This document shows, piece by piece, positions 14,260 through 31,516 of a DNA stretch of 33,161 nucleotides. A program made the position numbers and the translations under genes. The DNA is taken from assembly GCA_025934895.1 (NCBI GenBank), contig JAICWH010000029.1:1-33161 (forward strand), given 5' to 3'. Under the pieces are notes generated by a model. It did not search any database. It worked only from the letters and a program-made list of their open reading frames with translations, and was not told the origin of the DNA. Position 1 is the stretch's first letter. Each line of letters starts with the position of its first letter. This stretch comes from Nocardioidaceae bacterium (GTDB taxonomy: Bacteria > Actinomycetota > Actinomycetes > Propionibacteriales > Nocardioidaceae).

Positions 14260-14295
14260 CCGGACGCCGGCGGCTGCTTTGAGACAGTGGACGAC

Positions 14296-15492: not shown

Positions 15493-15521
15493 CCCCGGGG
15501 AGAGCTGTCCGTGGGTCCGGG

Positions 15522-15527
15522 TACGGT
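15522..15527 (+). promoter_or_regulatory. -10 element of a putative leaderless aldehyde dehydrogenase promoter
   Basis: TACGGT with 6 nt to the ATG at 15534. The intervening CGAGGG is too close to the start to be a ribosome binding site. Confidence 0.5.
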
Positions 15528-15533
15528 CGAGGG

Positions 15534-18085: not shown

Positions 18086-18110
18086 GCCTCGTCGACGTCG
18101 TGACCCGAAC

Positions 18111-18132
18111 CGCCTCCTGACCGCCTCCTGAC
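18111..18132 (+). repeat. 11-bp tandem duplication
   Basis: CGCCTCCTGAC occurs twice in direct succession (18111-18121, 18122-18132), just after the glutaryl-CoA dehydrogenase-like gene and before the C-rich tract. Confidence 0.8.
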
Positions 18133-18141
18133 CGCCCGCTG

Positions 18142-18172
18142 CCCCCCACCCCCCACCCCCACCCCCCACCCC
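18142..18172 (-). other. G-quadruplex-type tract on the minus strand
   Basis: Runs of 6, 6, 5, 6 and 4 cytosines are separated by single A residues. The minus strand therefore has five G-runs with one-base T loops, the pattern of a very stable quadruplex. On the plus strand the transcript would be C-rich and unstructured, like a Rho loading site. Confidence 0.75.
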
Positions 18173-18262
18173 TGTGCCGACCCGGCGCATCCGCAGGCCG
18201 AAACCCCGTCGACCCGGCGCATCCGCAGGGCCGAAACCCCGTCGACCCGGCGCTTCCGCAGG
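18173..18262 (+). repeat. GC-rich 32-bp repeat family, array C (three copies)
   Basis: Cores lie at 18177-18196, 18209-18228 and 18242-18261, with spacing 32 and 33. They are variants of YCGACCCGGCGCWTCCGCAG. The array lies between the G-rich tract and the AbiEi-like gene, same strand as the upstream glutaryl-CoA dehydrogenase-like gene. Confidence 0.9.
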
Positions 18263-18302
18263 ACCTGTGGACAGCGAGTCGCGACGAACCCGCGGAGAGT
18301 CC

Positions 18303-19286
18303 ATGCTGCTGGACGTGACTGTGCTCGCGGGATCTCGCAACGCAGCGCTGCTGGGACCCGGCTTCCCGCTGCCGCTGGAACAACCGTTCACGACGCGCCA
18401 AGCATTGGAGTCCGGCATCAGCAGATGGCGGCTGCATCGCCTGGTTCGCGAAGGCTACCTGCGGCGGCTGCTCAAGGGCGTGTACGTAGCGGCACAGACG
18501 CCGGACAGCCTCCTGCTCCGTGCGGAGGCGCTGGTCAGCGTCGTACCCACGCATGCAGTGGTCACCGACTGGACCGCGGTCTGGCTCTTCACCGGGCTGT
18601 TGCCACCGAACGACCACCTCGCCGTGCCGGCCATCAGCATGTTCCTGCCAGCGGGGAAGGGTCGGCTGCGCAACCAATTGTGCGACAGCGGCGAACGGAC
18701 CTTCGTCACCGGCGATTTCCTCACCATCGGCGGGCTGAGGGTCACCACGCCCCTTCGGACCGCGTGGGACATGGGTCGGCTGGCCCACCGAGACCGGGCC
18801 CTGAGCGGAATGGACGGACTGCTGAGACACGACCCCTCGATGCGTGAGGAGATGGTCGGCGGCGTCGAACGCTTTCGCAGGCAGCGCGGCGTGGTCCAGC
18901 TGCGCGAGCTTGCGCCGCTGGCCGACGCTCGGGCCGAGTCGCCGGGCGAGTCGGTTCTGCGGCTGCGCTGGCTGGACCTTCGGAGCCTGCCCGCACCCAC
19001 GCCGCAGGTGCCGATCTTCGACGACCGCGGTGTGCGGATCCACCGGCTCGACCTCGGCGTCGAGAAGCTTCGCTTCAGCGTGGAGTACGACGGGGAGGAG
19101 TTCCACTCCACCAACGAGGACCTCGTGCACGACGAGCGAAGACGGGAGTGGATCCGTCGCGAACGAGGCTGGCTGATCGTGCCCGTACGCAAGCACAACG
19201 TGTTCGGCGCCACCCGGGACATCGAGGGGATCCTCTACGAGGGCGTGCGGGAGGCCCGCCGGCGACTCGGTGAGCGACTGAGGTGA
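18303..19286 (+). CDS. AbiEi-like N-terminal domain with DUF559-type C-terminal domain
   Basis: 327 residues. The N-terminal part (about 25-75: FTTRQALESGISRWRLHRLV, then GYLRRLLKGVYV) matches the winged-helix start of type IV toxin-antitoxin AbiEi-family proteins. The C-terminal 80 residues (FSVEYDGEEFHS, DERRREWIRRERGWLIVPV) resemble DUF559 / Vsr-like folds of the PD-(D/E)XK nuclease clan. Many actinobacteria carry such orphan proteins; a nuclease or DNA-binding role is possible but unproven. No AbiEii-type nucleotidyltransferase toxin is adjacent. GGAGAG lies 3 nt before the ATG at 18303, close but the best start. The gene sits between repeat array C and a convergent hydrolase gene, an accessory-looking position. 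Confidence 0.7.
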   Translation: MLLDVTVLAGSRNAALLGPGFPLPLEQPFTTRQALESGISRWRLHRLVREGYLRRLLKGVYVAAQTPDSLLLRAEALVSVVPTHAVVTDWTAVWLFTGLLPPNDHLAVPAISMFLPAGKGRLRNQLCDSGERTFVTGDFLTIGGLRVTTPLRTAWDMGRLAHRDRALSGMDGLLRHDPSMREEMVGGVERFRRQRGVVQLRELAPLADARAESPGESVLRLRWLDLRSLPAPTPQVPIFDDRGVRIHRLDLGVEKLRFSVEYDGEEFHSTNEDLVHDERRREWIRRERGWLIVPVRKHNVFGATRDIEGILYEGVREARRRLGERLR

Positions 19287-19292
19287 CCTCAG
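19278..19292. terminator. Small palindrome at converging gene ends
   Basis: CTGAGGTGACCTCAG is a perfect palindrome whose centre TGA is the stop codon of the AbiEi-like gene. It gives a 6-bp stem with a three-base loop. No U-run follows, so terminator function is doubtful. Confidence 0.3.
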
Positions 19293-19313
19293 ACCCCTTC
19301 GGATCGACCGCGT

Positions 19314-20015
19314 CTAGGCGGCATAGGAGGTCGCCGCCGCTACCAGCCCGGCGAACAAGCCAGCGTCCGCGCGGGTCTCCGGGTGCCACTGCACCGCCAC
19401 CCGGAACCGCTCACCCGGGGCCTCGATCGCCTCCACTGTGCCGTCCTCGGCTCGCGCCGCGACGACGAACCCCGGATGCTCGCGCACGGACTGGTGATGG
19501 TGGCAGCCCACGCTGCTCCGGTCCCCGAGCAGCATCCTCAGCCGGGTGCCGGCGACGGTCTCGATGTCCACGTCCCCGAACTCCGGACCGCTCGGGGAGT
19601 GGGTCTGATGGCCGACCGAGTCCGGGAGATGCTGGTCGAGGGTGCCACCGGAGTGCACGGCCATCACCTGCATTCCGCGGCAGATCCCGAGCACTGGTAG
19701 CTCACGAGCCTCCGCTGCCTCGAGCAGAGCGAGCTCCCAGGCGTCGCGGTCGGTGCGCCAGCTCACGGTGAGCGGATGCGGGTCGGCGCCGTACCGGCCG
19801 GGGTCGACGTCGGCGCCGCCCGCGATCACCAGTCCGTCGAGCCGCCCCACGGCGTAGGTCGCCGCAGCCGGCTCGATCGGCGGGAGCAGCACCGGGACGC
19901 CGCCGGCGCGCTGGATGGAGTCGGCGTACCTCGTCGGGAGGAGGTCTGCCGGTTGGTCCCAGACGCCCCATCGCGCCTGCTCGCGGTAGGTGCTCAGTCC
20001 GATCAGCGGTCGCAC
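19314..20015 (-). CDS. Class I glutamine amidotransferase-like gamma-glutamyl hydrolase (PuuD-like, peptidase C26)
   Basis: 233 residues. The fold and catalytic set are those of gamma-glutamyl-GABA hydrolase PuuD: nucleophile Cys112 in LGICRGMQVM, His211 and Glu213 in VQWHPET, plus IAGGADVDPGRY (65-75). PuuD enzymes cut the gamma-glutamyl amide after an amine has been glutamylated and oxidised, releasing glutamate and the product acid. It is the last gene of the leftward operon with the glutamine-synthetase-like ligase, aldehyde dehydrogenase and SDR, which supports that role. The GTG start at 20015 has no strong Shine-Dalgarno. Repeat array D lies between it and the SDR gene. The substrate is unknown. 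Confidence 0.85.
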   Translation of the reverse strand: MRPLIGLSTYREQARWGVWDQPADLLPTRYADSIQRAGGVPVLLPPIEPAAATYAVGRLDGLVIAGGADVDPGRYGADPHPLTVSWRTDRDAWELALLEAAEARELPVLGICRGMQVMAVHSGGTLDQHLPDSVGHQTHSPSGPEFGDVDIETVAGTRLRMLLGDRSSVGCHHHQSVREHPGFVVAARAEDGTVEAIEAPGERFRVAVQWHPETRADAGLFAGLVAAATSYAA

Positions 20016-20026
20016 GTCAGCTCAGC

Positions 20027-20089
20027 CCCTGCGGACGCGCCGACTCGGCAGGGTTCCGGCCTGCGGACGGGCCGACTCGGCAGGGTCGG
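20027..20089 (-). repeat. GC-rich 32-bp repeat family, array D (two copies, inverted)
   Basis: Two copies with period 32. On the plus strand CTGCGGACGCGCCGACTCGG lies at 20029-20048 and a variant at 20061-20080. The family core therefore reads on the minus strand, the same strand as the SDR gene that ends 11 nt before the first core. The array sits inside the apparent operon. CCCTGC/GCAGGG arms can pair. Confidence 0.88.
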
Positions 20090-20091
20090 CA

Positions 20092-20859
20092 TCACAGGGG
20101 GGTGACGTAGGCACCGGAGATCCCGCCATCGACAAGGAACGTGCTGGCGGTGATGAAGCTGGCCTCGTCGGAGGCGAGGAAGACCACGGCGTTGGCGATC
20201 TCCACGGGATCGGCGAACCGGCCCATCGGCACGTGCACCAGACGGCGCTGCGCACGATCCTGGTCACTGGCGAACAGCTCCTGGAGCAGCGGCGTGTTCA
20301 CGGGCCCGGGGCACAGCGCGTTCACCCGGACCCCGTCGCGGGCGAACTGCACCCCGAGCTCCCGGGACATGGACAGCACACCACCCTTGGCCGCCGAGTA
20401 GGAGATCTGCGACGTCGCAGCGCCCATCACCGCGACGAACGAGGCGGTGTTGACGATCGAGCCGCGGCCCTGCTCGAGCATGTACGGCAGGACCGCCTTG
20501 CAGCACAGGTACACGCTCGTGAGGTCGACGTCCTGCACCTTGCGCCAGGTCTCGAGGTCGGTGTCCAGGATCGAGTCGTCGTCCGGTGGTGAGATGCCGG
20601 CGTTGTTGAAGGCGATGTCCACCGACCCGTAGGTCTCCTTGACCGTCCTGAACAGCCCGTCGACCTGGTCCTTGTCGGTGACGTCGCAGTGCACGAACAG
20701 CCCGCCGACGCCGTCGGCCACCTCCTTCCCGTGCAGGTCGTCGACATCCGCGACGACCACGTGCGCGCCTTCCTCGGCGAAGCGCAGCACCGTCGCCAGA
20801 CCGATGCCCGAGCATCCGCCGGTGACGACGGCCACCTTCCCGTCGAGCCGTCCTGCCAT
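20092..20859 (-). CDS. Short-chain dehydrogenase/reductase
   Basis: 255 residues, classical SDR: cofactor motif VTGGCSGIG (12-20), DVDD acidic residues after strand 2 (favouring NAD), NNAGIS, a catalytic Ser in NTASF and YSAAKGG, and the C-terminal FITASTFLVDGGISG. Relatives are annotated as 3-oxoacyl-ACP reductases or glucose dehydrogenases, which says little about the substrate. In this operon an alcohol intermediate of the amine pathway is plausible, for example oxidation of a hydroxyl group to an aldehyde for the neighbouring aldehyde dehydrogenase. AAGGAA lies 6 nt upstream of the ATG. The gene is 34 bp after the aldehyde dehydrogenase. Confidence 0.88.
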   Translation of the reverse strand: MAGRLDGKVAVVTGGCSGIGLATVLRFAEEGAHVVVADVDDLHGKEVADGVGGLFVHCDVTDKDQVDGLFRTVKETYGSVDIAFNNAGISPPDDDSILDTDLETWRKVQDVDLTSVYLCCKAVLPYMLEQGRGSIVNTASFVAVMGAATSQISYSAAKGGVLSMSRELGVQFARDGVRVNALCPGPVNTPLLQELFASDQDRAQRRLVHVPMGRFADPVEIANAVVFLASDEASFITASTFLVDGGISGAYVTPL

Positions 20860-20893
20860 CTGTGTTCCTTCCGTGGGCTGGTCGCGCGACCCC

Positions 20894-22249
20894 TCAGTGC
20901 GCGATGAAGACGTTCTTCTCCTCGGTGAACGCGTGCGGCGCGTCCGGCCCGAGCTCCCGGCCGAGCCCGGACTGCTTGTAGCCTCCGAACGGCGTCCAGT
21001 AGCGCACCGCCGAGTTGGAGTTCACCGACAGGTTGCCGGCCTGCACGCCGCGCGCGACCCGGAGGGCACGCCCGACGTCGGCGGTGAAGATGGAGCCGGC
21101 GAGGCCGTAGTCGGTGTCGTTCGCGCGGGCGACCGCGTCGGCCTCGTCGTCGAACGGCATCACCGCCACCACCGGGCCGAAGACCTCCTCGCGCCAGATC
21201 CGCTCGTCCGGCGAGTCGGAGAGCACCACGGTCGGGGGCACCCAGAAGCCCGGGCCCGCAGGAGCCGGCCCGGTGAACGCGACGTCCGCATCCTCCACGT
21301 AGGCCCGGACGCTCGAGCGCTGGTGGGCCGAGATCAGCGGCCCCATCTCGCTGCGGCGGTCAGCCGGGTCGAGCACGGCCATCGCGCGGACGGCCGGCTC
21401 GAGGAGGTCGAGGAACTCGTCGTACGCCGTGCGCTCGACCAGGATGCGCGAGCGGGCACAGCAGTCCTGGCCCGCGTTGTCGAACACGGCGTACGGCGCC
21501 GCAGCAGCTGCCGCGGCCAGGTCCGCGTCGGCGAAGATCACGTTGGCGCTCTTGCCGCCGAGCTCCAGAGTGCACCGCTTCACCTGGTCCGCGCAGCCGG
21601 CCATGATCCGCTTGCCCACCTCGGTGGAGCCGGTGAAGCAGACCTTGCGGACCAGGGGATGCGTCACGAACCGCTCGCCGACTACGGACCCCTTCCCGGG
21701 GATGACGGTGAACACCCCCTCGGGCAGACCGGCCTCGAGGGCCAGCTCGCCGATCCGGATGGCGGTCAGCGGGGTGAGCTCGGCAGGCTTGAGGACCACG
21801 GTGTTCCCGGCGGCCAGCGCCGGCGCCATCCCCCAAGCCATGATGGGCATCGGGAAGTTCCAGGGCACGATGATGCCGACCACCCCGAGCGGCTCATGGA
21901 ACGTGACGTCCAGTCCGCCGGGCACCGGGATCTGCCGGCCGAACATCCGCTCCGGCGCGGCGGAGTAGTAGTTCAGGCAGTCCCGGACGTTGCCGGCCTC
22001 CCACGTCGCGTTGCCCCAGGTGTGGCCGGCGTTGCGGACCTCGAGCTCGGCGAGCTCCTCGACGTGGGCGTCGACGACCGCGGCGAAGCGGCGCAGCAGC
22101 GTCGCGCGGTCACCGGGCGTGACGTCGCGCCAGGCCGGGAACGCGGCATGCGCCCGCTCGACGAGACGGTCGGTGTCCTCGACCGACGCCAGCGAGACGT
22201 CCGTCACCGGCCGCTCGGTCGCCGGGTTGACGACGGTGAACACAGCCAT
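20894..22249 (-). CDS. Aldehyde dehydrogenase (PuuC-like context)
   Basis: About 451 residues. NAD(P)-dependent oxidation of an aldehyde to the acid. Motifs: IVPWNFPMPIMAWGMAPAL, ELGGKSANVIFADADL with the general-base Glu, the nucleophile region NAGQDCCARSRIL and the C-terminal PFGGYKQSGLGRELGPDA. The nucleophile motif has two adjacent Cys. The ATG at 22249 is chosen because GAGGGG lies just upstream; an in-frame GTG at 22258 would overlap the preceding gene's stop region. Only 5 bp separate it from the glutamine-synthetase-like gene, so the two are co-translated. In the proposed pathway it acts on a gamma-glutamylated amino aldehyde; free amino aldehydes are also possible. Confidence 0.9.
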   Translation of the reverse strand: MAVFTVVNPATERPVTDVSLASVEDTDRLVERAHAAFPAWRDVTPGDRATLLRRFAAVVDAHVEELAELEVRNAGHTWGNATWEAGNVRDCLNYYSAAPERMFGRQIPVPGGLDVTFHEPLGVVGIIVPWNFPMPIMAWGMAPALAAGNTVVLKPAELTPLTAIRIGELALEAGLPEGVFTVIPGKGSVVGERFVTHPLVRKVCFTGSTEVGKRIMAGCADQVKRCTLELGGKSANVIFADADLAAAAAAAPYAVFDNAGQDCCARSRILVERTAYDEFLDLLEPAVRAMAVLDPADRRSEMGPLISAHQRSSVRAYVEDADVAFTGPAPAGPGFWVPPTVVLSDSPDERIWREEVFGPVVAVMPFDDEADAVARANDTDYGLAGSIFTADVGRALRVARGVQAGNLSVNSNSAVRYWTPFGGYKQSGLGRELGPDAPHAFTEEKNVFIAH

Positions 22250-22254
22250 GCCCC

Positions 22255-23631
22255 TCACATCCTCTCGAAGCTGCGTCGGAGCTCCCAGTCGGTGACCGCG
22301 GCCCCGAACGACGCCAGCTCGACGTCGGCCATGTTGGTGTAGTGGTCGACGACCTCCTCACCGAGCGCGGCGCGGGCGACCGACGACCGGGTGAAGGCGT
22401 CACGAGCGTCCCGCAGGGTCTGCGGCACCCTGGGCTTGTCGGACTCGTAGGCGTTGCCGACGAGCTCCGGCTCCAGCTCCAGCTCGTTGTCGATGCCGTG
22501 CAGCCCGCCGGCGAGCATCGCGGCGAGCGCCAGGTAGGGGTTCACGTCACCGCCGGGCAGCCGGTTCTCCATCCGCGCCGAGGCGCCGTGGCCCACCAGC
22601 CGCACGGCGCAGGTCCGGTTGTCGAGTCCCCAGGCGACAGCGGTCGGCGCGAACGACCCGGCGGCGAAACGCTTGTAGGAGTTGACGTTCGGGGCGTAGA
22701 GCAGCGTGAAGTCCTCCATGGTGGCGAGCACGCCCGCGACGAAGTGGTCGTAGAGCGGCGTCCTGGCACCGTCCTGCCAGAACACCGTCTCGCCGTCAGT
22801 TCCGCGCAGCGACAGGTGGATGTGGCAGGAGTTCCCCTCCCGCTCGTTGAACTTCGCCATGAACGTCAGCGACTTGCCGTGCGCCGCCGCGATCTCCTTG
22901 GCCGCGGTCTTGTAGACCGAGTGGTTGTCGGCGGTCGCGAGCGCCGCGTCGTAGAGGAAGCCGATCTCCTGCTGCCCGAAGTTGCACTCCCCCTTCGCAC
23001 CCTCGACGTTCATCCCGGCGGCGTACATGGCGTTGCGGATGTCGCGGAGCACGGGCTCCACCCGCGTCGTGCCGAGGATCGAGTAGTCGATGTTGTACTG
23101 ATTGCTCGGTGTCAGCCCCTTGTAGCCGGCGCTCCAGGCGCTCTCGTAGGTGTCCTCGAAGAGGATGAACTCGAGCTCCGTGCCGGCGAGCGCGACGAAG
23201 CCGGCGTCGGCTGCGCGCCGCAGCTGGTGCTTGAGGATCGTCCGCGGGGAGGGCTCCACCGGGCTGTGGTCGGAGTCGACGAGGTCGCACTGGATCATCG
23301 CCGTCCCCGGCACGTGGGGAAGCAGCCGGATCGTGTCGTAGTCGAGGACGAACTCCATGTCCCCGTAGCCCTTCTCCCAGGAGGTCATCGCATAGCCACT
23401 GACGGTGTTCATGTCCACGTCGACGCCGAGGAGGTAGTTGCACCCCTCCACCCCGTGGTCCAGCACGACGTCGGTGAAGTACGACGCGTGCAGCCGTTTG
23501 CCCTGCAGCCGACCCTGCATGTCGGTGAACGCGATGACCACCGTGTCGACAGCACCAGAGCCGATCAACGTCTCGAGGCGCTCCAGGTCGAGCAGCCGGG
23601 GGTTGCGCGGCGGCAGCGAGGGCAGTGACAT
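22255..23631 (-). CDS. Glutamine synthetase-family gamma-glutamyl-amine ligase (PuuA/GlnA3/GlnA4-like)
   Basis: 458 residues. The fold is that of glutamine synthetase with ATP, glutamate and metal residues in place: TELEFILFEDTYE, NFGQQEIGFLYD, GNSCHIHLSL, NSYKRFAAGSFAPTAVAWG and RMENRLPGGDVNPYLALA. The N-terminal FTDMQGRLQGKRL and overall length match the amine-glutamylating subgroup (PuuA for putrescine, Streptomyces GlnA3 for polyamines, GlnA4 for ethanolamine) rather than housekeeping GlnA. The segment expected to hold a GlnA adenylylation Tyr is not recognisable. It should attach glutamate to an amine using ATP. GGAGA precedes the ATG. It is the first catabolic gene after the GntR regulator, 35 bp downstream. 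The amine cannot be named from sequence. Confidence 0.88.
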   Translation of the reverse strand: MSLPSLPPRNPRLLDLERLETLIGSGAVDTVVIAFTDMQGRLQGKRLHASYFTDVVLDHGVEGCNYLLGVDVDMNTVSGYAMTSWEKGYGDMEFVLDYDTIRLLPHVPGTAMIQCDLVDSDHSPVEPSPRTILKHQLRRAADAGFVALAGTELEFILFEDTYESAWSAGYKGLTPSNQYNIDYSILGTTRVEPVLRDIRNAMYAAGMNVEGAKGECNFGQQEIGFLYDAALATADNHSVYKTAAKEIAAAHGKSLTFMAKFNEREGNSCHIHLSLRGTDGETVFWQDGARTPLYDHFVAGVLATMEDFTLLYAPNVNSYKRFAAGSFAPTAVAWGLDNRTCAVRLVGHGASARMENRLPGGDVNPYLALAAMLAGGLHGIDNELELEPELVGNAYESDKPRVPQTLRDARDAFTRSSVARAALGEEVVDHYTNMADVELASFGAAVTDWELRRSFERM

Positions 23632-23666
23632 CGGTTCTCCAGAGGGGGTCGACGGGCAGGGTGATC

Positions 23667-24446
23667 TCAGGTCAGCAGGCCTCGCAGCAGCGCGGCGGTG
23701 TCGTCGCAGTGGCGCTCCATGACCCGCCGGGCCCTGGTCGGCTCGCTCGCCAGAACGGCGCCGAGGATCAGCCGGTGCTGGCGGTCGGAGTGCTCGATGT
23801 TGACGGCCAGCACGGGGATCGCACTGAGCATGTCGTGCAGGTCGGCCTGCACCACTGTCACGGACTGGACGGTCAGCGCCGAGTCGGTCACCGCGGCGAT
23901 CGCGAGGTGGAACCGCGAGTCGGCCTGCCGGTGCTCGGCCGGGTCGGTGGCGCCGGCCACCTCGTCGTGCGCTGCGACCAGGAGGTCCCGTTCGGCGACG
24001 CCGAGCTTCCGTGAGGCAGCGATGTAGGCGGCCCCCGGCTCGACCACCCGCCGGAACACCAGGGTGTCGCGCAGGTGCTCACTGCGCGGTCCCAGGGCCC
24101 GGGCGCCACGCGCGGACGGTCGTCGAGGCCGGTAGCAGACCACCGTGCCGCCGCCCCGGCCCCGCGTGGTCTGGACGAACTCGGCGGCGCGCAACCCGGC
24201 CATCGCCTCCCGCAGAGTGGCTCGCGAGACACCCAGCCGCTCGGCGAGCTCCCGCTCCGGTGGGAGGGTGGTGCCCCGCGGGTAGACGCCGAGCCGGATC
24301 GCAGTCGCCAGCTGCTCCACGCAGCCCTCGAAGGCGTGGTGGCCACGGACGGCACGCAGCACGCTGTCACCGAGCTCCCACCCGGGCCCGGGACCCACCT
24401 CGGCGCCGCGGTCGACGCGGGAGTCGAGGTGGGAGGCGGCAGGCAC
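23667..24446 (-). CDS. GntR/FadR-family transcriptional regulator
   Basis: About 259 residues from the GTG at 24446. An N-terminal winged helix has the GntR signature (LPPERELAERLGVSRATLRE, then AMAGLRAAEFVQTTRGRGGG) and a C-terminal FCD ligand-binding domain has its metal-type pattern (DSRFHLAIAAVTDS, RQHRLILGAV, MERHCDD). It probably represses this operon and the divergent permease operon until a pathway amine or acid binds. A TTG at 24482 would extend it by 12 residues but lies in its own promoter. On the minus strand TTGACG (24482-24477), 18 bp, GAGACT (24458-24453) and 6 nt precede GTG 24446, favouring a leaderless start there. A perfect palindrome sits just beyond the -35. Confidence 0.88.
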   Translation of the reverse strand: MPAASHLDSRVDRGAEVGPGPGWELGDSVLRAVRGHHAFEGCVEQLATAIRLGVYPRGTTLPPERELAERLGVSRATLREAMAGLRAAEFVQTTRGRGGGTVVCYRPRRPSARGARALGPRSEHLRDTLVFRRVVEPGAAYIAASRKLGVAERDLLVAAHDEVAGATDPAEHRQADSRFHLAIAAVTDSALTVQSVTVVQADLHDMLSAIPVLAVNIEHSDRQHRLILGAVLASEPTRARRVMERHCDDTAALLRGLLT

Positions 24447-24483
24447 GGGCCAAGTCTCATGACATCCGGGCGACCACGTCAAT

Positions 24484-24499
24484 GGTTTGACATCAAACC
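24484..24499. promoter_or_regulatory. Perfect 7-2-7 palindromic operator between divergent operons
   Basis: GGTTTGA-CA-TCAAACC. It contains a consensus TTGACA (24487-24492) that can serve as the -35 of the permease operon, and it abuts the -35 of the GntR gene on the other strand. A FadR/GntR dimer bound here would block both promoters. A weaker repeat CGTCT-N6-AGACG lies at 24506-24521. Confidence 0.7.
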
Positions 24500-24577
24500 T
24501 TTATCCGTCTGCATCTAGACGGTCAGTTCTCCACGACGCTACTTTGGGCCGACCTCGTCACATGCATCGGAGATGAC

Positions 24578-26134
24578 ATGACCGAATCCACCGAACTGTC
24601 GCAGGACGAGCAGATGCTCGCCAAGCTCGGCTACAAGCAGGAGCTGAACCGCTCCTGGTCGGGCTTCTCGAACTTCGCCATCTCGTTCTCCATCATCTCC
24701 ATCCTGGCGGGCTGCTTCACGACCTTCTACCAGGGTTGGAACAACGGCGGTCCGGTCGCGATCTCGTGGGGCTGGCCGATCGTCTCGCTGTTCATCCTGA
24801 TCATCGGCCTCACCATGTCCGAGCTCGTGTCGGCCTACCCGACCTCGGGAGGGATCTACTGGTGGGCGGCCAAGCTGGGCGGCCCGGCGGCCGGCTTCTT
24901 CACAGGCTGGCTCAACCTGATCGGACTGCTGGCCGTGACGGCGTCCGTGGCGTACGGCGCCGCGACGTTCTTCGACCTCACGCTGAGCACCGTCTCCTCG
25001 GGCTGGGCCGGGGGCGCAGGTCTCGGTCGAACCTACGCGATCTTCCTGGTCATCCTGGCGCTCGCCGCTCTGGCCAACATCTTCGGCGGGCACCTGATGG
25101 CCATCATCAACAACATCTCGGTGTGGTGGCACGTCGGCGGTGCGGCCCTGGTGATCCTGATCCTGGCGTTCATCCCCAAGACGCACCAGGCCGTCAGCTG
25201 GGTGTTCACCACCAAGATCAACAACTCCGGCTTCGACGGCGGTGCGGTCGGTGACCTGAAGTTCTGGTTCCTGGTCCTGCCGCTCGGGCTGCTGCTGACG
25301 CAGTACACCATCACCGGCTTCGACGCCTCCGCACACCTGTCGGAGGAGACGTCGGCCGCCTCGGAGGCGGCCGCGAAGGGGATCTGGCGGTCCATCGCCT
25401 ACTCCGCGATCGGCGGCTACGTGCTGCTTCTGGCCTTTCTGTTCGCCGTCCAGGACCCCGGCGGGGTCAGCAAGGGCGGCGGCGCGGTCGATGTGATCTT
25501 CGGACAGGCCCTGCCCCAGGGCTGGCACTTCGTGGTGCTGCTCATCTCGACGGCAGGACAGCTGTTCTGCACGGCCGCGTGCATGACGAGCTGCTCGCGG
25601 ATGACGTTCGCGTTCAGCCGGGACGGTGCCATCCCCGGCTCGCGGATGTGGTCCAAGGTCAACCCGAGGACGAAGGTGCCCGTCAACGCCGTGCTGCTGT
25701 CGTTCGCGGTGGGCGCGATCATCACCGCTCCCGCTCTGGTCAGCGTCAACGGGGTGCCGGTCGCGTTCCTCGCGGTGGTGTCGATCGCGGTGATCGGGCT
25801 GTACCTCGCCTTCGCCGTCCCGATCTTCCTGCGGTGGCGGCTCGGCGACTCGTTCGAGACAGGGTCGTGGAACCTCGGTGCGAAGTACAAGTGGATGAAC
25901 ATCCTGGCCGTCGTGGAGATCGCCATCGTGTCGATCTACTTCATCCTGCCGTTCACCCCGACCGGCACGCCCGGCAACAAGGACTTCACCTGGAGCAGCG
26001 TCAACTACGCGCCGATCCTGACCTTCGGCACGCTGATCGTGCTGGCGATCTGGTGGAAGGCGTCAGCGAAGCACTGGTTCACCGGGCCCAAGCACACCAT
26101 CGACACCGACGTCATCGAGGCTTTCGAAGACTGA
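24578..26134 (+). CDS. APC-family amino acid/amine permease
   Basis: 518 residues, about twelve hydrophobic helices, for example ISFSIISILAGCFTTFY (about 35-51), WPIVSLFILIIGLTMSELV (about 66-84) and FWFLVLPLGLLLTQYTI. Typical APC features are GWLNLIGLLAVTASVAYG and the TGFDASAHLSEET motif of the amino-acid/choline transporter subgroup (UgaP, HNM1 and bacterial GABA or ethanolamine permeases). It should import an amine or amino acid by proton symport across the cytoplasmic membrane. GGAG lies 5 nt before the ATG. The gene opens the rightward operon, divergent from the GntR regulator, with the palindromic operator in between. Substrate assignment to the amine used by the locus is inference. 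Confidence 0.9.
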   Translation: MTESTELSQDEQMLAKLGYKQELNRSWSGFSNFAISFSIISILAGCFTTFYQGWNNGGPVAISWGWPIVSLFILIIGLTMSELVSAYPTSGGIYWWAAKLGGPAAGFFTGWLNLIGLLAVTASVAYGAATFFDLTLSTVSSGWAGGAGLGRTYAIFLVILALAALANIFGGHLMAIINNISVWWHVGGAALVILILAFIPKTHQAVSWVFTTKINNSGFDGGAVGDLKFWFLVLPLGLLLTQYTITGFDASAHLSEETSAASEAAAKGIWRSIAYSAIGGYVLLLAFLFAVQDPGGVSKGGGAVDVIFGQALPQGWHFVVLLISTAGQLFCTAACMTSCSRMTFAFSRDGAIPGSRMWSKVNPRTKVPVNAVLLSFAVGAIITAPALVSVNGVPVAFLAVVSIAVIGLYLAFAVPIFLRWRLGDSFETGSWNLGAKYKWMNILAVVEIAIVSIYFILPFTPTGTPGNKDFTWSSVNYAPILTFGTLIVLAIWWKASAKHWFTGPKHTIDTDVIEAFED

Positions 26135-26135
26135 C

Positions 26136-27056
26136 GTGCACGAGCCGGAGGGCGGACTGGACGACCTGCTGGACCAGATCCCTGTGCTGGCGGGGCTGCC
26201 ACGCTCGGTCGTGGAGCTGCACGGCGGGCTGACCAACAAGAACCTCCGGGTCACCACGAGCCGCGGCGACTACGTCGTGCGCCGGTTCCGCGGCGACGCC
26301 GAGCTGCTCGGCATCGACCGGGACGCCGAGCACGCGAACACGGTGGCGGCCGCGCGGGCCGGCGTGGGCGCGCCGGTCGTCGACTACGTGCCGGAGCTGG
26401 GCGTGCTGGTGCTCGGGTTCCTCGGCGGACGTACCTACGACAACGCCACGTTCGCCGAGCCCGGTGTGCCGGCCCGCGCCGCCCACGCGATCCGCAGGCT
26501 GCACGAAGGGCCGCGGTTCGTCGGCGACTTCGACATGTTCGACCGGCAGCGGCGCTACCTGCGCACGGTGCACGAGCACGGCTACCCCCTCGTCGAGGGG
26601 TACGTCGACCTGGCCGACCGGTTCGCCGAGGTGCGCCAGGCACTCGCCGCACGCGCAGAGCCGACGGTGCCCTGCAACAACGACCTGCTGGCCGGGAACT
26701 TCGTCGACGACGGGGAGCGGCTGTGGCTGATCGACTACGAGTACTCCGGCAACAACGACGCCTGCTTCGAGCTCGGCAACACCAGCACCGAGTGCGACCT
26801 CGACCGCGACCAGGTCGAGGAGCTGGTGTCGGCGTACTTCGGGAGAACCCTGCGCAGCAGCAAGCTGGCGCGGGTGCGGCTGCAGGCGCTGGTATCGGCC
26901 TACGGCTGGTCGCTGTGGGGCGCCATCCAGGCGGCCGTGAGCAGCATCGACTTCGACTTCGAGGCCTGGAGTAGCGAACGGTTCGAGAAGGCGGCCCGCG
27001 GACTGACCGGTGACCGGCTGCCGGCGCTGCTGGAGGAGGTCACCCGTGCCGACTGA
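26136..27056 (+). CDS. Choline/ethanolamine kinase-like phosphotransferase (APH fold)
   Basis: 306 residues. The kinase-like fold of aminoglycoside phosphotransferases and choline kinases: nucleotide loop HGGLTNKNLRV (about 28-38), a Lys-equivalent strand YVVRRFRG, the catalytic loop CNNDLLAGNF near 181 (Asn where the family usually has His in HNDxxxxN) and the metal-binding LIDYEYSGNND near 203 followed by ELGNTS. This last segment is typical of choline/ethanolamine kinases. It should phosphorylate a hydroxyl group of an amino alcohol with ATP. The GTG start is 1 bp after the permease stop. The gene overlaps the FAD-GcvT gene by 11 bp, so the three are one operon. A kinase is unusual beside a Puu-like set. 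Confidence 0.82.
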   Translation: MHEPEGGLDDLLDQIPVLAGLPRSVVELHGGLTNKNLRVTTSRGDYVVRRFRGDAELLGIDRDAEHANTVAAARAGVGAPVVDYVPELGVLVLGFLGGRTYDNATFAEPGVPARAAHAIRRLHEGPRFVGDFDMFDRQRRYLRTVHEHGYPLVEGYVDLADRFAEVRQALAARAEPTVPCNNDLLAGNFVDDGERLWLIDYEYSGNNDACFELGNTSTECDLDRDQVEELVSAYFGRTLRSSKLARVRLQALVSAYGWSLWGAIQAAVSSIDFDFEAWSSERFEKAARGLTGDRLPALLEEVTRAD

Positions 27057-29454
27057 CCTGCCGACCCGGGCCCGCGTCGTGGTCGTCGGGGGTGGCGTCA
27101 TCGGCACCAGCACCGCCTACCACCTCTCGGCCCTCGGCTGGAGTGACGTGCTGCTCCTGGAGCAGGGCACCCTGTCGTGCGGCACCACCTGGCACGCCGC
27201 GGGCCTGGTGGGCCAGCTGCGCGCCTCGGAGAGCGGCACCCGGCTGGTGCAGCGCAGCGGCGAGCTCTACGCCCGGCTCGAGGCGGAGACCGGGTTGTCG
27301 GCGGGCTACCGGCAGTGCGGAGGCGTCATCGTCGCCCGCACCCCCGACCGGATGACCCAGCTGCGGCGCACCGCTGCGACCGCTGCGGCCTACGGTCTCG
27401 AGTGCTCGATGATGACCCCGGCCGAGGCCCTTGAGCGGTGGCCGGTGATGCAGGTCGAGGACCTGCTCGGGGCGATCTGGCTGCCCGGGGACGGCACGGC
27501 CAGTCCCACCGACCTCACCATGGCGCTCGCCAAGGGTGCCAGGATGCGCGGCGCCCGGATCCAGGAGCACACCCGCGTGGTCGACGTACTCACCAAGGAC
27601 GGTGCCGTGACCGGGGTCCGCACCGACCGGGGTGACGTCGAGGCCGAGGTCGTCGTGAACTGCGCCGGCCAGTGGGCCGCGCAGCTGGGCCGGATGGCCG
27701 GGGTGAACGTGCCGCTGCACTCGTGCGAGCACTTCTACGTCGTCACCGACCAGATCGACGGAGTGGGCAGCGGCCTGCCGATCATGCGTGACCCGGACGG
27801 CTGGACCTACTTCAAGGAGGAGGTCGGCGGGCTCGTCGTCGGCGGCTTCGAGCCCGAGGCCAAGCCGTGGCTCGGTCCTGACGACATCCCCTACCCGTTC
27901 GAGTTCCGGCTCCTGGACGAGGACTGGGAGCACGTCGAGATCCTGCTGGAGAGCGCCCTGCTGAGGGTCCCCGCCCTGCGGGAGACCGGCATCCGCAGGT
28001 TCTACAACGGCCCGGAGAGCTTCACGCCCGACAACCAGTTCCTGCTCGGTGAGGCACCCGAGCTCCGCGGCTTCTTCGTGGGCGCCGGCTTCAACTCGGT
28101 CGGCATCGCCTCAGCCGGTGGCGCCGGGCAGGCGCTGGCCGAGTGGGTGGTCGCGGGTGAGCCCACCAGCGACCTGGTGGCCGTGGACATCCGCCGCTTC
28201 GCGCCGTTCCATGCGAACCACCGCTGGCTGCGTGAGCGGGTGGTGGAGGTGCTCGGCCTGCACTACGCCGTGCCGTGGCCGAACCGGGAGCTGGAGAGCG
28301 CCCGGCCGCTGCGGTGCTCACCGCTGCACGAGCGGCTGGCCGCCCGCAACGCGGTGTTCGGGTCGAAGATGGGGTGGGAGCGGCCGCTGTTCTTCGGCCC
28401 TCCCGGCGCGAGCCTGGCGTACTCCTGGGAGCGGCCGGCCTGGCTGCCGTGGTCCGCGGCCGAACAGCGCGCCACGCGCACCGACGTCGCGGTGTTCGAC
28501 ATGACCTCGTTCTCGACGTACCTCGTGACCGGACGGGACGCGGAGGCCACCTTGCAGTGGCTGTGCACCGCCGACGTGGCGGTTCCGGTGGGCCGGGTCG
28601 TCTACACCGCGATGCTCAACGCGCGGGGCACCTACGAGGCCGACCTGACCGTGACCCGGGTCGCAGCCGACGAGTTCCTCCTGGTCAGCAGCTCGGCGAG
28701 CACGGTCCGCGACCTCGACTGGGTGCGGCGGCACGTGCCCGTGGGCCACGACACCCGGGTGGTCGACGTGACGTCGTCCTACGCGGTGCTCGGAGTCATG
28801 GGGCCGCGCTCGCGGGAGCTGCTGGCGGCGTTGTCGCAGGACCCCTTCGACGGGCCGTTCGGCTCCTCCCGCGTGGTCACCCTCGGTGCCGCGACGGTGC
28901 GAGCCACCCGGGTCACCTATGTGGGCGAGCTGGGCTGGGAGCTCTACGTGGCCACCGAGCTCGCCGCCGGCGTGTACGACGACCTGGTCGCCGGCGGCGC
29001 GGCGGATGCGGGCTACTACGCCATCGAGTCGATGCGGCTGGAGAAGGGCTACCGCGCCTTCGGTCGCGAGCTCACGCCGGACCACTCGCCGGTCGAGGCG
29101 GGCCTGCTGTTCGCCTGCAAGTTGCGGACCGGCGTCGACTTCCTGGGCCGCCCGGCGCTCGAGGCGGCCCGCGCTGCGGCGCCGACGAGACGGCTGGTGT
29201 CCTTCGTGCTCGAGGACCCCGAGCCGATGCTGTGGGGCGGCGAGCTGGTGCTGCGCGACGGGACCGCGGTCGGTCAGGTCACCAGTGCCGCCTGGGGTGA
29301 GGCGGTCGGAGCCTGCGTCGGGCTCGCCTACGTCGCCGCCGCGGAGGACCTGCCGGCGGGCGGCTACGCCGTCGACGTGGCAGGGGAGGTGCGCCGCGTG
29401 CGGGTCGATGTGCGGGCGCCGTACGACCCGGGCAACCAGCGGGTGCGCGGCTAG
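27046..29454 (+). CDS. Dimethylglycine/sarcosine dehydrogenase-like FAD-GcvT fusion protein
   Basis: 802 residues, the length of mitochondrial and bacterial dimethylglycine dehydrogenases. An N-terminal FAD-dependent DAO domain has VVVVGGGVIGTSTAYHL and LEQG. The motif SCGTTWHAAGLVGQLR contains His50, matching the His that binds FAD covalently in the family. A central FAO_M region follows. A GcvT folate-binding part (about 440-690) and GcvT C-terminal barrel (about 700-802) include MLNARGTYEADLTVTR and MRLEKGYRAFGRELTPDHSP. Such enzymes remove N-methyl groups oxidatively and pass the C1 unit to tetrahydrofolate. GGAGGAGG lies 6 nt before GTG 27046. Last gene of the rightward operon; in the Puu comparison it stands in the PuuB position. 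The exact methylated amine is unknown. Confidence 0.9.
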   Translation: MPTDLPTRARVVVVGGGVIGTSTAYHLSALGWSDVLLLEQGTLSCGTTWHAAGLVGQLRASESGTRLVQRSGELYARLEAETGLSAGYRQCGGVIVARTPDRMTQLRRTAATAAAYGLECSMMTPAEALERWPVMQVEDLLGAIWLPGDGTASPTDLTMALAKGARMRGARIQEHTRVVDVLTKDGAVTGVRTDRGDVEAEVVVNCAGQWAAQLGRMAGVNVPLHSCEHFYVVTDQIDGVGSGLPIMRDPDGWTYFKEEVGGLVVGGFEPEAKPWLGPDDIPYPFEFRLLDEDWEHVEILLESALLRVPALRETGIRRFYNGPESFTPDNQFLLGEAPELRGFFVGAGFNSVGIASAGGAGQALAEWVVAGEPTSDLVAVDIRRFAPFHANHRWLRERVVEVLGLHYAVPWPNRELESARPLRCSPLHERLAARNAVFGSKMGWERPLFFGPPGASLAYSWERPAWLPWSAAEQRATRTDVAVFDMTSFSTYLVTGRDAEATLQWLCTADVAVPVGRVVYTAMLNARGTYEADLTVTRVAADEFLLVSSSASTVRDLDWVRRHVPVGHDTRVVDVTSSYAVLGVMGPRSRELLAALSQDPFDGPFGSSRVVTLGAATVRATRVTYVGELGWELYVATELAAGVYDDLVAGGAADAGYYAIESMRLEKGYRAFGRELTPDHSPVEAGLLFACKLRTGVDFLGRPALEAARAAAPTRRLVSFVLEDPEPMLWGGELVLRDGTAVGQVTSAAWGEAVGACVGLAYVAAAEDLPAGGYAVDVAGEVRRVRVDVRAPYDPGNQRVRG

Positions 29455-30338
29455 CCGGTGAACCCGGCGTGCACGTGGTCGTGGTGGGTGGCGTCGCTGA
29501 ACCACTGGGGGCCCTGACCCAGCAGGTAGGGGCCGCCTACGTTGTAGGACCCCGCCGCAGCGGCCGCCTCCATGTAGCCCGTGACCAGTCGGCGCGGGGT
29601 GTCGCGGGAGACCACGAGGTGCCCGTCGACACGGAACGTGTCGAAGGCCCGGCCCTGCGGGTGGTCGCTGAGCCGGTCGGTGCCGAACACGTGCAGCGGG
29701 TGCCCGGAGCGGACCACGCTGACGCCGACGCGGTAGCGCTCGGAGAGTCGCAGCAGCGCCGTCAGCACGCTGACGTGCACCCGCCCCGAGCGGACGTCCG
29801 CACGTGCCGCCGGTGGTAGGTCGATCCGCCCGCTCCCCAGCACCCTGCGCTCCTCGTCGGTGGACCGGTGCGGTGCTCCCGGGTGGGAGGGGTGCACCGC
29901 GGTGACCCGCCAGCCGGCTGTGGTGCGGCTCAGCCGGACGTCGTACGTCGCCCCGCCGCTGACCACCGCACGGCCGCGGCGGTGCCAGGACCGGGTCACC
30001 ACCAGGACGCTGACGGTGTCGGCGAGCAGGCCGCCGTACTGCGCTTCGAGCACCTGCACCACCGACCCGCGGTCGGCGTCGCGACGTTCGATCGCACGCA
30101 CGGCGGTGGCCTTGGCCCGAGGTGACAGGTCGGCGGGGTCGGGCCGCCAGGGGCTCACTGGCGGCAGCGGCGGTGCGCTCGGCGTCGCCGTCGGCCCCCC
30201 ACCTGGTGTCGAGGGCCGCGGCACCGAGGGCGACGAGGAGTGCCGGGGGGAGGGCCGAGGCTCCGGCGAGCTCGTGCAGCCGGCCAGCAGGAGCCCGGCC
30301 CCGAGCAGCAGGAACTCCCGGCGGTCAGTCCTCGGCAT
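29451..30338 (-). CDS. Tat-type lipoprotein with LAS-family (M15-like) metallopeptidase motifs
   Basis: 295 residues. The N-terminus TDRREFLLLGAGLLLAGC combines a twin-arginine motif with a lipobox (LAGC, Cys about 21), so it is predicted to be exported folded and lipid-anchored. A 40-residue Ser/Pro linker follows. The C-terminal half has SDHPQGRAFD (His226, Asp233) and HHDHVHAGF (285-293), the H-x6-D and HxH pattern that binds zinc in D-Ala-D-Ala carboxypeptidase/lysostaphin-type (LAS) peptidases. A role in cell-wall peptide trimming is possible, but overall similarity to known peptidases looks low. Its ATG overlaps the stop of the 54-codon ORF upstream (TGATG). Its stop shares the bases CTAG with the convergent FAD-GcvT gene. 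Confidence 0.7.
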   Translation of the reverse strand: MPRTDRREFLLLGAGLLLAGCTSSPEPRPSPRHSSSPSVPRPSTPGGGPTATPSAPPLPPVSPWRPDPADLSPRAKATAVRAIERRDADRGSVVQVLEAQYGGLLADTVSVLVVTRSWHRRGRAVVSGGATYDVRLSRTTAGWRVTAVHPSHPGAPHRSTDEERRVLGSGRIDLPPAARADVRSGRVHVSVLTALLRLSERYRVGVSVVRSGHPLHVFGTDRLSDHPQGRAFDTFRVDGHLVVSRDTPRRLVTGYMEAAAAAGSYNVGGPYLLGQGPQWFSDATHHDHVHAGFTG

Positions 30339-30351: not shown

Positions 30352-30502
30352 CGCCCTCCGTGACGGGGTCGAGCTGGTCCCGCAGCTCGCCGGTCACCTC
30401 GACCTGGGTGTCGTCCATCTCCGGACCATGCTGAGGCTCTCGCCGGTACGAGGACCCCGGGTCGTGCGGGTCAGCCGGTGGCGACGGGTCGGGGGGTGGC
30501 AT
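30338..30502 (-). CDS. Small acidic protein, 54 residues, unrecognised
   Basis: The ATG at 30502 is preceded by GGAAGGA with 6 nt spacing, a good ribosome binding site. The frame runs to a TGA whose last base is the A of the lipoprotein ATG (TGATG), a classical coupling arrangement. The product is Pro-rich at the start (MPPPDPSPPADPHDPGSS) and acidic at the end (DTQVEVTGELRDQLDPVTEG, then DAED). It has 15 Asp/Glu among 54 residues, three Arg and no Cys, Trp or membrane segment. I do not recognise a family. Coupling suggests co-production with the lipoprotein. It could also serve mainly as a leader ORF that delivers ribosomes to the next gene. Confidence 0.6.
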   Translation of the reverse strand: MPPPDPSPPADPHDPGSSYRREPQHGPEMDDTQVEVTGELRDQLDPVTEGDAED

Positions 30503-30587
30503 CGTCGGTCCTTCCGCTCGGGTGACCGTTCTCTACCCCCGACGCCCGCCGCCCATGTCCGTCCCGCCGGGTGAGGGTGCGGGTGTC

Positions 30588-30593
30588 TAGAGT
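30588..30593 (+). promoter_or_regulatory. -10 element of a putative leaderless GNAT-paaI-paaK promoter
   Basis: TAGAGT with 6 nt to the GTG at 30600, without a Shine-Dalgarno. Confidence 0.5.
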
Positions 30594-30599
30594 GTCGGC

Positions 30600-31076
30600 G
30601 TGGCCGACCTGCGACCCCTGCGCGACACCGACGTCGCGGACGTGCTGGCGCTCAACGATGCCAATGTGACCAACCTGGCGGCGATGGACGAGGCGAAGCT
30701 GCACGAGCTGAGGAACATCGCGGACCGCTTCGACGTGCTCGACGTGGACGGCGGCTTCGGCGGGTTCGTGATCACGTTCGCCCAGGGTGCGCCTTACGAC
30801 TCGGACAACTATCGCTGGTTCGGCGCCCGGCACCGCCGCTTCTACTACCTCGACCGGATCGTGCTGCACGAGTCGTTCCGCCGTCGGCGCCTCGGGACGT
30901 TCGTGTACGACGAGATCGAGCGGGTCGCGGCGCCGTACGGCCTGCTCGCCCTGGAGGTCAACCTGGTGCCACGCAACGACGCGTCGCTGGCCTTCCACGC
31001 GGGGCGGGGCTATGTCGAGGTCGGCCGGCTCGGCGACGAGCAGCACCTCGTGTCGCTGATGGAGAAGGGCCTGTGA
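30600..31076 (+). CDS. GNAT-family N-acetyltransferase
   Basis: 158 residues. The acetyl-CoA binding signature RRRRLGTFVYDEIERVA follows the YYLDRIVLHESF strand, and the C-terminal LEVNLVPRNDASLAFHAGRG gives motif B. The length suits a single GNAT domain acting on a small molecule or protein N-terminus; the substrate is unknown. The GTG start is supported by TAGAGT 6 nt upstream. The stop overlaps the GTG of the thioesterase gene (GTGA), so the gene is the first of a coupled three-gene operon with paaI and paaK. A role in phenylacetate metabolism is not established for such a protein. Confidence 0.88.
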   Translation: MADLRPLRDTDVADVLALNDANVTNLAAMDEAKLHELRNIADRFDVLDVDGGFGGFVITFAQGAPYDSDNYRWFGARHRRFYYLDRIVLHESFRRRRLGTFVYDEIERVAAPYGLLALEVNLVPRNDASLAFHAGRGYVEVGRLGDEQHLVSLMEKGL

Positions 31077-31516
31077 CGACGGCCCGCTCAGCGCAGGAGG
31101 TCGCCACCCGCGCAGCCGAGGCGATGTGGGCCGGGGACGCGGCGAGCCAGGCACTGGGCATCGAGCTGGTGCGGGTCGCACCCGGTCGTGCGACGGTGCG
31201 GATGACGGTGCGCGAGGACATGGTCAACGGTCACGCGATCGGGCACGGCGGGCTGACGTTCACACTGGCGGACTCGGCGTTCGCGTTCGCGTGCAACTCC
31301 TACAACCGCAGCACGGTCGCCGCGCACTGCGAGATCCGGTTCCTGGCACCGACCCGGCTCGGCGACGTGTTGGTCGCCTCGGCCGTCGAGCGCAGCCGGA
31401 AGGACCGCGACGGCGTCTATGACGTCACCGTGCACGTCGGCGACACGTTGGTCGCGGACTTCGTGGGGCACAGCAAGGAGGTTCGGGGCGTGCTGTTCAC
31501 GGATGAGGCGAGCTGA
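31073..31516 (+). CDS. paaI: PaaI-like hydroxyphenylacetyl-CoA thioesterase
   Basis: 147 residues, single hotdog domain. The segment NGHAIGHGGLTFTLADSAFAFACNS has the HGG and catalytic Asp pattern of PaaI thioesterases. CEIRFLAPTRLGDVLVASA and the final VADFVGHSKEV complete the family pattern. PaaI hydrolyses phenylacetyl-CoA and ring-hydroxylated dead-end CoA esters, freeing CoA in phenylacetate degradation. It is coupled to its neighbours on both sides: GTGA overlap with the GNAT gene and TGATG with paaK. Adjacency to paaK makes the PaaI assignment strong, although the ring-oxidation genes paaABCDE are not in the window. Confidence 0.9.
   Translation: MTTARSAQEVATRAAEAMWAGDAASQALGIELVRVAPGRATVRMTVREDMVNGHAIGHGGLTFTLADSAFAFACNSYNRSTVAAHCEIRFLAPTRLGDVLVASAVERSRKDRDGVYDVTVHVGDTLVADFVGHSKEVRGVLFTDEAS

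Follow-up and report, generated by a model that had tools for sequence, protein, structure and literature searches.

An actinobacterial ethanolamine locus carrying a conserved choline-kinase-like and FAD-GcvT gene pair, proposed to act on N-methylated ethanolamines

Why would genes for a choline-kinase-like protein and a folate-type flavoprotein be carried alongside a set of genes for gamma-glutamylation? The question is raised by a locus in a Nocardioidaceae bacterium (assembly GCA_025934895.1, contig JAICWH010000029.1), which we analysed within a stretch of 33,161 nucleotides, hereafter the window; the contig, C235 in our numbering, belongs to a 3.9 Mb genome. An initial annotation had described eight genes in two divergent arms, and the list of open reading frames (ORFs) together with Pfam and NCBIfam searches places all eight at or very near the coordinates it gave and in the families it named (Table 1). 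The minus-strand arm is transcribed in the order GntR/FCD regulator, glutamine synthetase-like ligase, aldehyde dehydrogenase, short-chain dehydrogenase (SDR) and PuuD-like amidotransferase, with intergenic gaps of no more than 76 bases; the aldehyde dehydrogenase and ligase genes overlap by 4 bases or lie 5 bases apart, depending on the start. The plus-strand arm comprises an APC permease, the choline-kinase-like protein and a protein combining flavin adenine dinucleotide (FAD) and GcvT domains (FAD-GcvT), with a spacing of 1 base between the permease and kinase genes and, with the start chosen here for the FAD-GcvT gene, an overlap of 11 bases between it and the kinase gene. The locus is genuine and conserved, its core is known, and the kinase/FAD-GcvT pair is the new part. 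Our best explanation of the whole, to which we give a probability of about 0.5, is that the locus breaks down ethanolamine together with its N-methylated forms, every substrate being a predicted one.

The initial annotation knew of no described pathway with this set of genes, a view that does not hold for the core. A Streptomyces cluster encodes an SDR, an aldehyde dehydrogenase, GlnA4, a regulator, a putative ethanolamine transporter and a glutamine amidotransferase; GlnA4 was shown to glutamylate ethanolamine and a glnA4 mutant fails to grow on it, while the later steps to glycine and glutamate, including oxidation by an SDR-type dehydrogenase after glutamylation, are only proposed (PMC6529630, in the sections available). 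The available part of a review also covers this core set (PMC9397018). The window holds the glutamine synthetase-like ligase, SDR, aldehyde dehydrogenase, amidotransferase, regulator and permease together; the minus-strand arm with the permease is thus the Streptomyces ethanolamine gene set as given in those sections, matched by gene content and not directly to SCO1613, and the core very probably serves ethanolamine. The nearest solved relatives of the ligase by sequence are 5dm3 and 11zs, nearly tied, and its top fold match is 5dm3 (Chromohalobacter salexigens Csal_0679; Z 39.5, root-mean-square deviation (rmsd) 2.9, 369 aligned residues), obtained with a weak model (predicted local distance difference test score (pLDDT) 73.7). 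C. salexigens, the organism rather than the protein Csal_0679, is named with a predicted glutamylation route in the same sections of PMC6529630. The Streptomyces cluster differs from the window in that its figure legend contains neither a kinase nor a FAD-GcvT gene, whereas the window has both, and the available text never mentions methylethanolamine (PMC6529630).

The ligase, aldehyde dehydrogenase and hydrolase had initially been matched to PuuA, PuuC and PuuD. At the level of superfamilies this match stands, and the locus shares the logic of gamma-glutamylation with the E. coli Puu putrescine pathway; the scores, however, fall far below the NCBIfam equivalog cut-offs (GGputSyn 198 of 650 bits needed, PuuC 333 of 850, PuuD-type hydrolase 77 of 266), and on this basis we rejected the Puu pathway proper. 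By the Pfam and NCBIfam matches, the sole FAD enzyme among the eight proteins is the multi-domain FAD-GcvT protein, and a single-domain oxidase of the PuuB type, as in E. coli, is probably absent. We did not take the name of the model matched by the SDR, 3-oxoacyl-ACP reductase (NF004713), at face value.

The kinase had been noted in the initial annotation but given no role. By its PF01633 domain, predicted fold and key residues it is a member of the choline/ethanolamine-kinase family and a predicted kinase. Its structural model (pLDDT 94.1) has its best match, at Z 34.9, in 3dxq, a member of the choline/ethanolamine-kinase family from Mesorhizobium, and aligns with LicA bound to choline (4r7b) at Z 29.6 and rmsd 2.4 over 277 residues. 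Choline/ethanolamine kinases take the first 34 places among the fold matches (Z 34.9 to 22.1); homoserine kinase and a further choline kinase entry share the next score, 21.5, ahead of aminopropanol kinase at 20.4. Residues D183, N188, D200 and W258 are conserved at 1.00 and W261 at 0.99 among 76 aligned sequences, and the W258/W261 pair aligns with two Trp of human choline kinase beta; we take D183/N188/D200 to be the catalytic Asp/Asn/Asp and the paired Trp to be an amine cage. The guanitoxin kinase GntI (NF041256) was rejected as an identity at 179 of 357 bits needed, and is a distant relative only.

The FAD-GcvT protein carries DAO, FAO_M, GCV_T and GCV_T_C domains in this order, the architecture of dimethylglycine dehydrogenase (DMGDH, 4pab) and dimethylglycine oxidase (1pj5), to which it scores 449 and 381 bits respectively. 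The ORF list gives its span as 27010-29454; the start at 27046 is our choice, and residue numbers count from it. Its TWHAAG motif at residue 48 aligns with the same motif of 4pab and presumably carries the flavin-linking His, while D533, conserved at 1.00 in the four groups compared, is presumably the folate-site Asp. Unlike its domains, its clade is not shared with DMGDH and dimethylglycine oxidase: in a tree of 104 sequences the window protein falls in a group that we call clade A, next to proteins from Roseateles sp. XES5, Ensifer, Sinorhizobium and Shinella plasmids (L005-L008). The tree was built by a quick method, the protein's own paralogues have very long branches, and joins within clade C are flagged as possibly false; the clade names are ours. 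Kinase genes are paired with FAD-GcvT proteins of three clades (A, B and C). Clade C and clade A genes flank the kinase on either side in L038 and L043, and L120 carries a second kinase-like gene and a second FAD-GcvT gene, arrangements that fit the stepwise removal of two methyl groups.

How far these genes belong together was addressed with several sets of genomes. The first consists of 80 kinase loci, the best 80 of 299 retrieved by peptide pattern, which are skewed to close relatives and many of which are clipped by contig ends. A FAD-GcvT gene lies within 12 kb of the kinase in 79 of them (L082 has none), 40 with the close form (clade A, at least 60% identity) and 39 with other clades. 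All four core enzymes are within 12 kb in half of the clade-A loci (20/40); since 20 of the 27 close-form loci with more than 7.5 kb of DNA before the kinase hold GlnA4, aldehyde dehydrogenase and SDR within 12 kb, the grouping is more than chance. A fairer count comes from a class sample of 296 Actinomycetes genomes whose completeness is 90% or more, with thresholds of E <=1e-30 for the kinase (one, the best, per genome), E <=1e-100 for GlnA4 and E <=1e-125 for the best three FAD-GcvT candidates per genome, so that linkage counts are lower bounds. The kinase was found in 57 and GlnA4 in 147 of the 296; at least 44 of the 57 kinase genomes have a FAD-GcvT gene within 12 kb, and in six others the close form is present on a different contig. 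Every genome with the close form at 65% identity or more (20/20) has the kinase, within 12 kb in at least 14. GlnA4 is present in 54/57 genomes with the kinase versus 93/239 without it (Fisher p 1.4e-15, own genome excluded and kinship ignored). Finally, in a family sample of 197 genomes (close form at 59% identity or more, partial copies included; GlnA4 E <=1e-150), GlnA4 occurs in 50/51 genomes with the close form versus 46/146 without it, and within 15 kb of the close form in 39/51; the one exception, G088, has a copy 59% identical. GlnA4 is thus often found alone and the pair seldom without GlnA4, which is the pattern of an upstream add-on and fits one that feeds ethanolamine into the GlnA4 core. 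In one family of the class sample with genomes of 1.2-2.2 Mb (11 with the kinase), the kinase, a FAD-GcvT protein of about 40% identity and GlnA4 are retained (L136, L137, L138, L144; L083, named Candidatus Nanopelagicaceae).

Shared control is suggested by the divergent promoter, which holds a perfect inverted repeat, GGTTTGA-CA-TCAAACC, that we propose as an operator common to both arms on sequence grounds. Its strict form, GGTnTGAnnTCAnACC, occurs in nine of 20 related intergenic stretches between GntR regulator and permease genes; the other 11 stretches lack it, and the 20 loci, with 383,457 bases in all, contain no copy outside these stretches. A relaxed pattern finds 16 of the 20 (none in L010, L014, L059 and L085) but is loose, and the strict count alone was used. 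The initial view that the two arms belong together is thus borne out by their joint conservation in many genomes, once co-occurrence was checked, and by this proposed operator. A second regulator, of GntR type with a UTRA domain (for example L014:9181-9972), lies near the kinase in 44/80 loci; none was identified in the window.

What, then, might the pair do? DMGDH-type enzymes act on acidic amines. In Eubacterium limosum, MthK must phosphorylate choline before MthB demethylates it, and the authors suggest that phosphorylation makes the alcohol acidic, like the substrates that the MthB family, too, binds; MthK can also hand the phosphate of the demethylated product on to the next choline (PMC12155760, in the sections available). 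It is because of this precedent and the action of DMGDH-type enzymes on acidic amines that we infer the same phosphorylation-first logic here. There a choline kinase primes the substrate and the methyl group passes to tetrahydrofolate, as would happen here; in contrast to the window's flavoenzyme, the E. limosum demethylase, acting on phosphocholine within the MthK/MthB/MthC/MthA set, is a MttB-family protein with a cobalamin protein (PMC12155760, same sections), and no MttB domain was found in the eight locus proteins.

In the proposed pathway the permease would import the amine and the kinase would phosphorylate N-methyl- or N,N-dimethylethanolamine. The FAD-GcvT protein would then oxidise an N-methyl group and hand it to tetrahydrofolate as methylene-tetrahydrofolate, leaving ethanolamine phosphate, whose phosphate could be recovered by MthK-like transfer from the kinase onto the next methylated ethanolamine or by a phosphatase. 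The GlnA4-like ligase would glutamylate free ethanolamine, the SDR and then the aldehyde dehydrogenase would oxidise the product to gamma-glutamylglycine, and the PuuD-like hydrolase would cleave this into glycine and glutamate; glycine and methylene-tetrahydrofolate could give serine and pyruvate. Glycine and a one-carbon unit as products would be in keeping with the serine dehydratase genes of loci L038, L042, L071 and L145 and with the PurU-like gene of L038. A HAD-type hydrolase gene adjoins the kinase in L016, L043, L073 and L129-L131. Separately, L124:5021-11904 encodes two choline-kinase-like proteins, a DeoR regulator, a Zn hydrolase, a hisN-type phosphatase and ethanolamine ammonia-lyase EutBC. 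Methylated ethanolamines are probably the added substrate, and the N-methylated amino alcohol of the initial annotation, such as methylethanolamine, remains the best guess; for the phosphorylated intermediate we put the chances as even.

Other assignments of the pair have to be weighed against this one. The FAD-GcvT protein might demethylate free N-methylethanolamines, with the kinase serving another end such as lipid ethanolamine phosphate or the trapping of imported amine. The same clusters and the same nesting are compatible with such a division, the fold of the kinase is that of choline/ethanolamine kinases, and these feed lipid synthesis in other organisms; the kinase is, however, tied to FAD-GcvT proteins of three clades even away from GlnA4, which points to a joint reaction, and no lipid gene was identified among the annotated neighbours (most neighbours being unannotated), so that we consider this unlikely. 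Nor does the place of PuuB, where the initial annotation had put the FAD-GcvT protein and where it would act on a gamma-glutamyl-N-methyl amine, seem to suit it. A glutamine synthetase-like ligase is indeed in the neighbourhood, but tertiary amines cannot be glutamylated, FAD-GcvT genes pair with the kinase also where GlnA4 is not nearby, and the available sections of PMC6529630 propose for this slot an SDR-type dehydrogenase, of which the window has one; we regard the assignment as very improbable indeed.

An ordinary dimethylglycine or sarcosine dehydrogenase, with N-methylethanolamine first oxidised to sarcosine or with the locus serving a betaine route, would agree with the domain architecture and the score to DMGDH. 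The same genome, however, encodes closer paralogues, one on C44 (L126; 548 bits to DMGDH, beside a MttB-family gene) and one on C188 (L127; dimethylglycine oxidase score 521 bits, with an ETF-beta-like gene as its neighbour and a BADH-like gene of 619 bits, below the cut-off of 669, on the same contig), as well as a SoxB-like gene on C234 (493 bits, below the cut-off of 529; a type III glutamine synthetase is on the same contig). The window protein is unlikely to be the dimethylglycine enzyme because of these better-matching paralogues, and we rejected the betaine/dimethylglycine route as the main role; the kinase and GlnA4 would also be left unexplained, which makes the dehydrogenase reading quite improbable. 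The pair could instead handle another small phosphorylated or phosphonate amine, such as N-methyl-aminoethylphosphonate or another amino alcohol, still yielding ethanolamine or a GlnA4 substrate. In four loci taken from the best 25 of 1,275 records, the FAD-GcvT genes of the closest plasmid relatives among the matches listed (57-58% identity) lie beside 2-aminoethylphosphonate genes. Since aminoethylphosphonate is an anionic analogue of ethanolamine phosphate, this neighbourhood also speaks for our main reading. FAD enzymes for N-methyl-aminoethylphosphonate are known: PbfC/PbfD resemble the proposed reaction in the flavin oxidation of an N-methyl amine bearing an anionic phosphorus group and differ in that tetrahydrofolate and GcvT are not mentioned in the available sections (PMC10590968). 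A phosphonate substrate, however, needs no kinase, and the window proteins and neighbours that were annotated yielded no phosphonate gene; we hold this reading to be distinctly unlikely. The plasmid FAD-GcvT genes (near 10001 in L005-L008, each with a DeoR-type regulator) form a sister clade and are candidate N-methyl-aminoethylphosphonate demethylases; near that of L005, at 14075-21877, are genes for an APC permease, a glutamine synthetase, a GMC oxidoreductase, an N-formylglutamate amidohydrolase and an aldehyde dehydrogenase, a group similar to the one proposed for Chromohalobacter.

A preference for anionic substrates may leave a trace in the FAD-GcvT alignment. Three basic residues, R59, R166 and R383, are common to the kinase-linked and phosphonate-linked clades, whereas neither paralogue in this genome has them; R59 does not vary across clades A, B and C and the four phosphonate-linked proteins, and is N or D in the paralogues (an intermediate sequence, L120_2940, was left out). 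This sharing is only suggestive. Several points weigh against phosphorylation-first demethylation feeding the GlnA4 core. The role of R59 is a putative one read from an alignment, we know of no enzyme assay for the kinase or the FAD-GcvT clade, and the kinase may phosphorylate ethanolamine itself for lipid use. The core genes are not nearby in seven of the 27 clade-A loci with enough DNA, and not one of the 39 pattern-retrieved clade B and C loci has the complete set of four core enzymes within 12 kb, although L141-L143, chosen for a nearby GlnA4 and not at random, do hold all four. Of the 57 kinase genomes in the class sample, 19 carry GlnA4 within 20 kb of the kinase, 13 lack a FAD-GcvT gene within 12 kb of it and seven of these 13 have no close form elsewhere (both among the best three candidates per genome); the co-occurrence statistics ignore shared ancestry. 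In marine Alphaproteobacteria, the DNA for about 8 kb around the kinase/FAD-GcvT pairs contains no glutamine synthetase gene. As to phosphate release, only 4/80 kinase loci have a HAD gene within 12 kb (L016, L043, L073, and L038 at 7 kb), the encoded protein scores below the cut-offs of every named phosphatase model, and no phosphatase was identified in the window.

Table 1. Features of the locus, with positions in the window, strand and supporting evidence
Feature	Position	Strand	Evidence
PuuD-like class-I amidotransferase (Peptidase C26), proposed gamma-glutamylglycine hydrolase	19314..20015	-	PF07722 E 1.5e-57; GICRG at residue 110, HPE at residue 211
SDR, proposed gamma-glutamylethanolamide (alcohol) dehydrogenase	20092..20859	-	NF004713 481 bits, cut-off 404
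Aldehyde dehydrogenase, proposed gamma-glutamylacetaldehyde dehydrogenase	20894..22258	-	PF00171 E 5.4e-155; GQDCCA motif at residue 263
GlnA4-like ligase, proposed gamma-glutamylethanolamide synthetase	22255..23631	-	PF00120 E 9.9e-96; relatives by sequence and fold
GntR/FCD regulator, start codon uncertain	23667..24482	-	PF07729, PF00392
Proposed operator, perfect inverted repeat in divergent promoter	24484..24499	.	Strict form in 9/20 related intergenic stretches
APC-family permease, proposed (methyl)ethanolamine uptake	24578..26134	+	PF13520 E 8.4e-52; TIGR00907 311 of 598 bits needed
Choline/ethanolamine-kinase-fold protein, proposed N-methylethanolamine kinase	26136..27056	+	PF01633 70.6 bits, cut-off 29; fold model
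FAD-GcvT protein (clade A), proposed N-methylethanolamine-phosphate:tetrahydrofolate demethylase	27046..29454	+	DAO, FAO_M, GCV_T, GCV_T_C above cut-off; TWHAAG, D533; tree

For the permease no solved-structure relative was found at E 1e-5. Directly past the FAD-GcvT gene, minus-strand ORFs at 29451-30338 and 30471-31181 have no Pfam or NCBIfam match at E 0.001, and adjoining the amidotransferase end a plus-strand ORF at 18174-19286 has an AbiEi-antitoxin-type domain and a weak, below-cut-off match to the MTES_1575 nuclease-like model. Among the open-licence papers listed by our literature searches, no title or abstract opening describes the combination of kinase, FAD-GcvT and GlnA4, and the available part of a paper on marine choline metabolism mentions neither a kinase nor ethanolamine (PMC4744692).

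Somewhat short of even odds, we tentatively propose that the locus represents a widespread aerobic pathway, in which phosphorylation would let a DMGDH-type flavoenzyme grip an anionic group and pass the methyl group to tetrahydrofolate, the same kinase would pass the phosphate on, and the ethanolamine would enter the gamma-glutamyl route. If so, convergence would have produced an oxidative counterpart of the cobalamin-dependent MthK/MthB route, the phosphate-tagging trick would have arisen twice with unrelated demethylases, and FAD-GcvT enzymes would gain a new class of substrate. It would also name enzymes for the oxidative use of methylated ethanolamines, which serve as headgroups in methylated phospholipids and as industrial amines. 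The proposal makes the function of this FAD-GcvT clade directly testable, and would explain why the kinase/FAD-GcvT pair is carried by many Actinomycetes, including some with genomes of 1.2-2.2 Mb, and by some marine Alphaproteobacteria.

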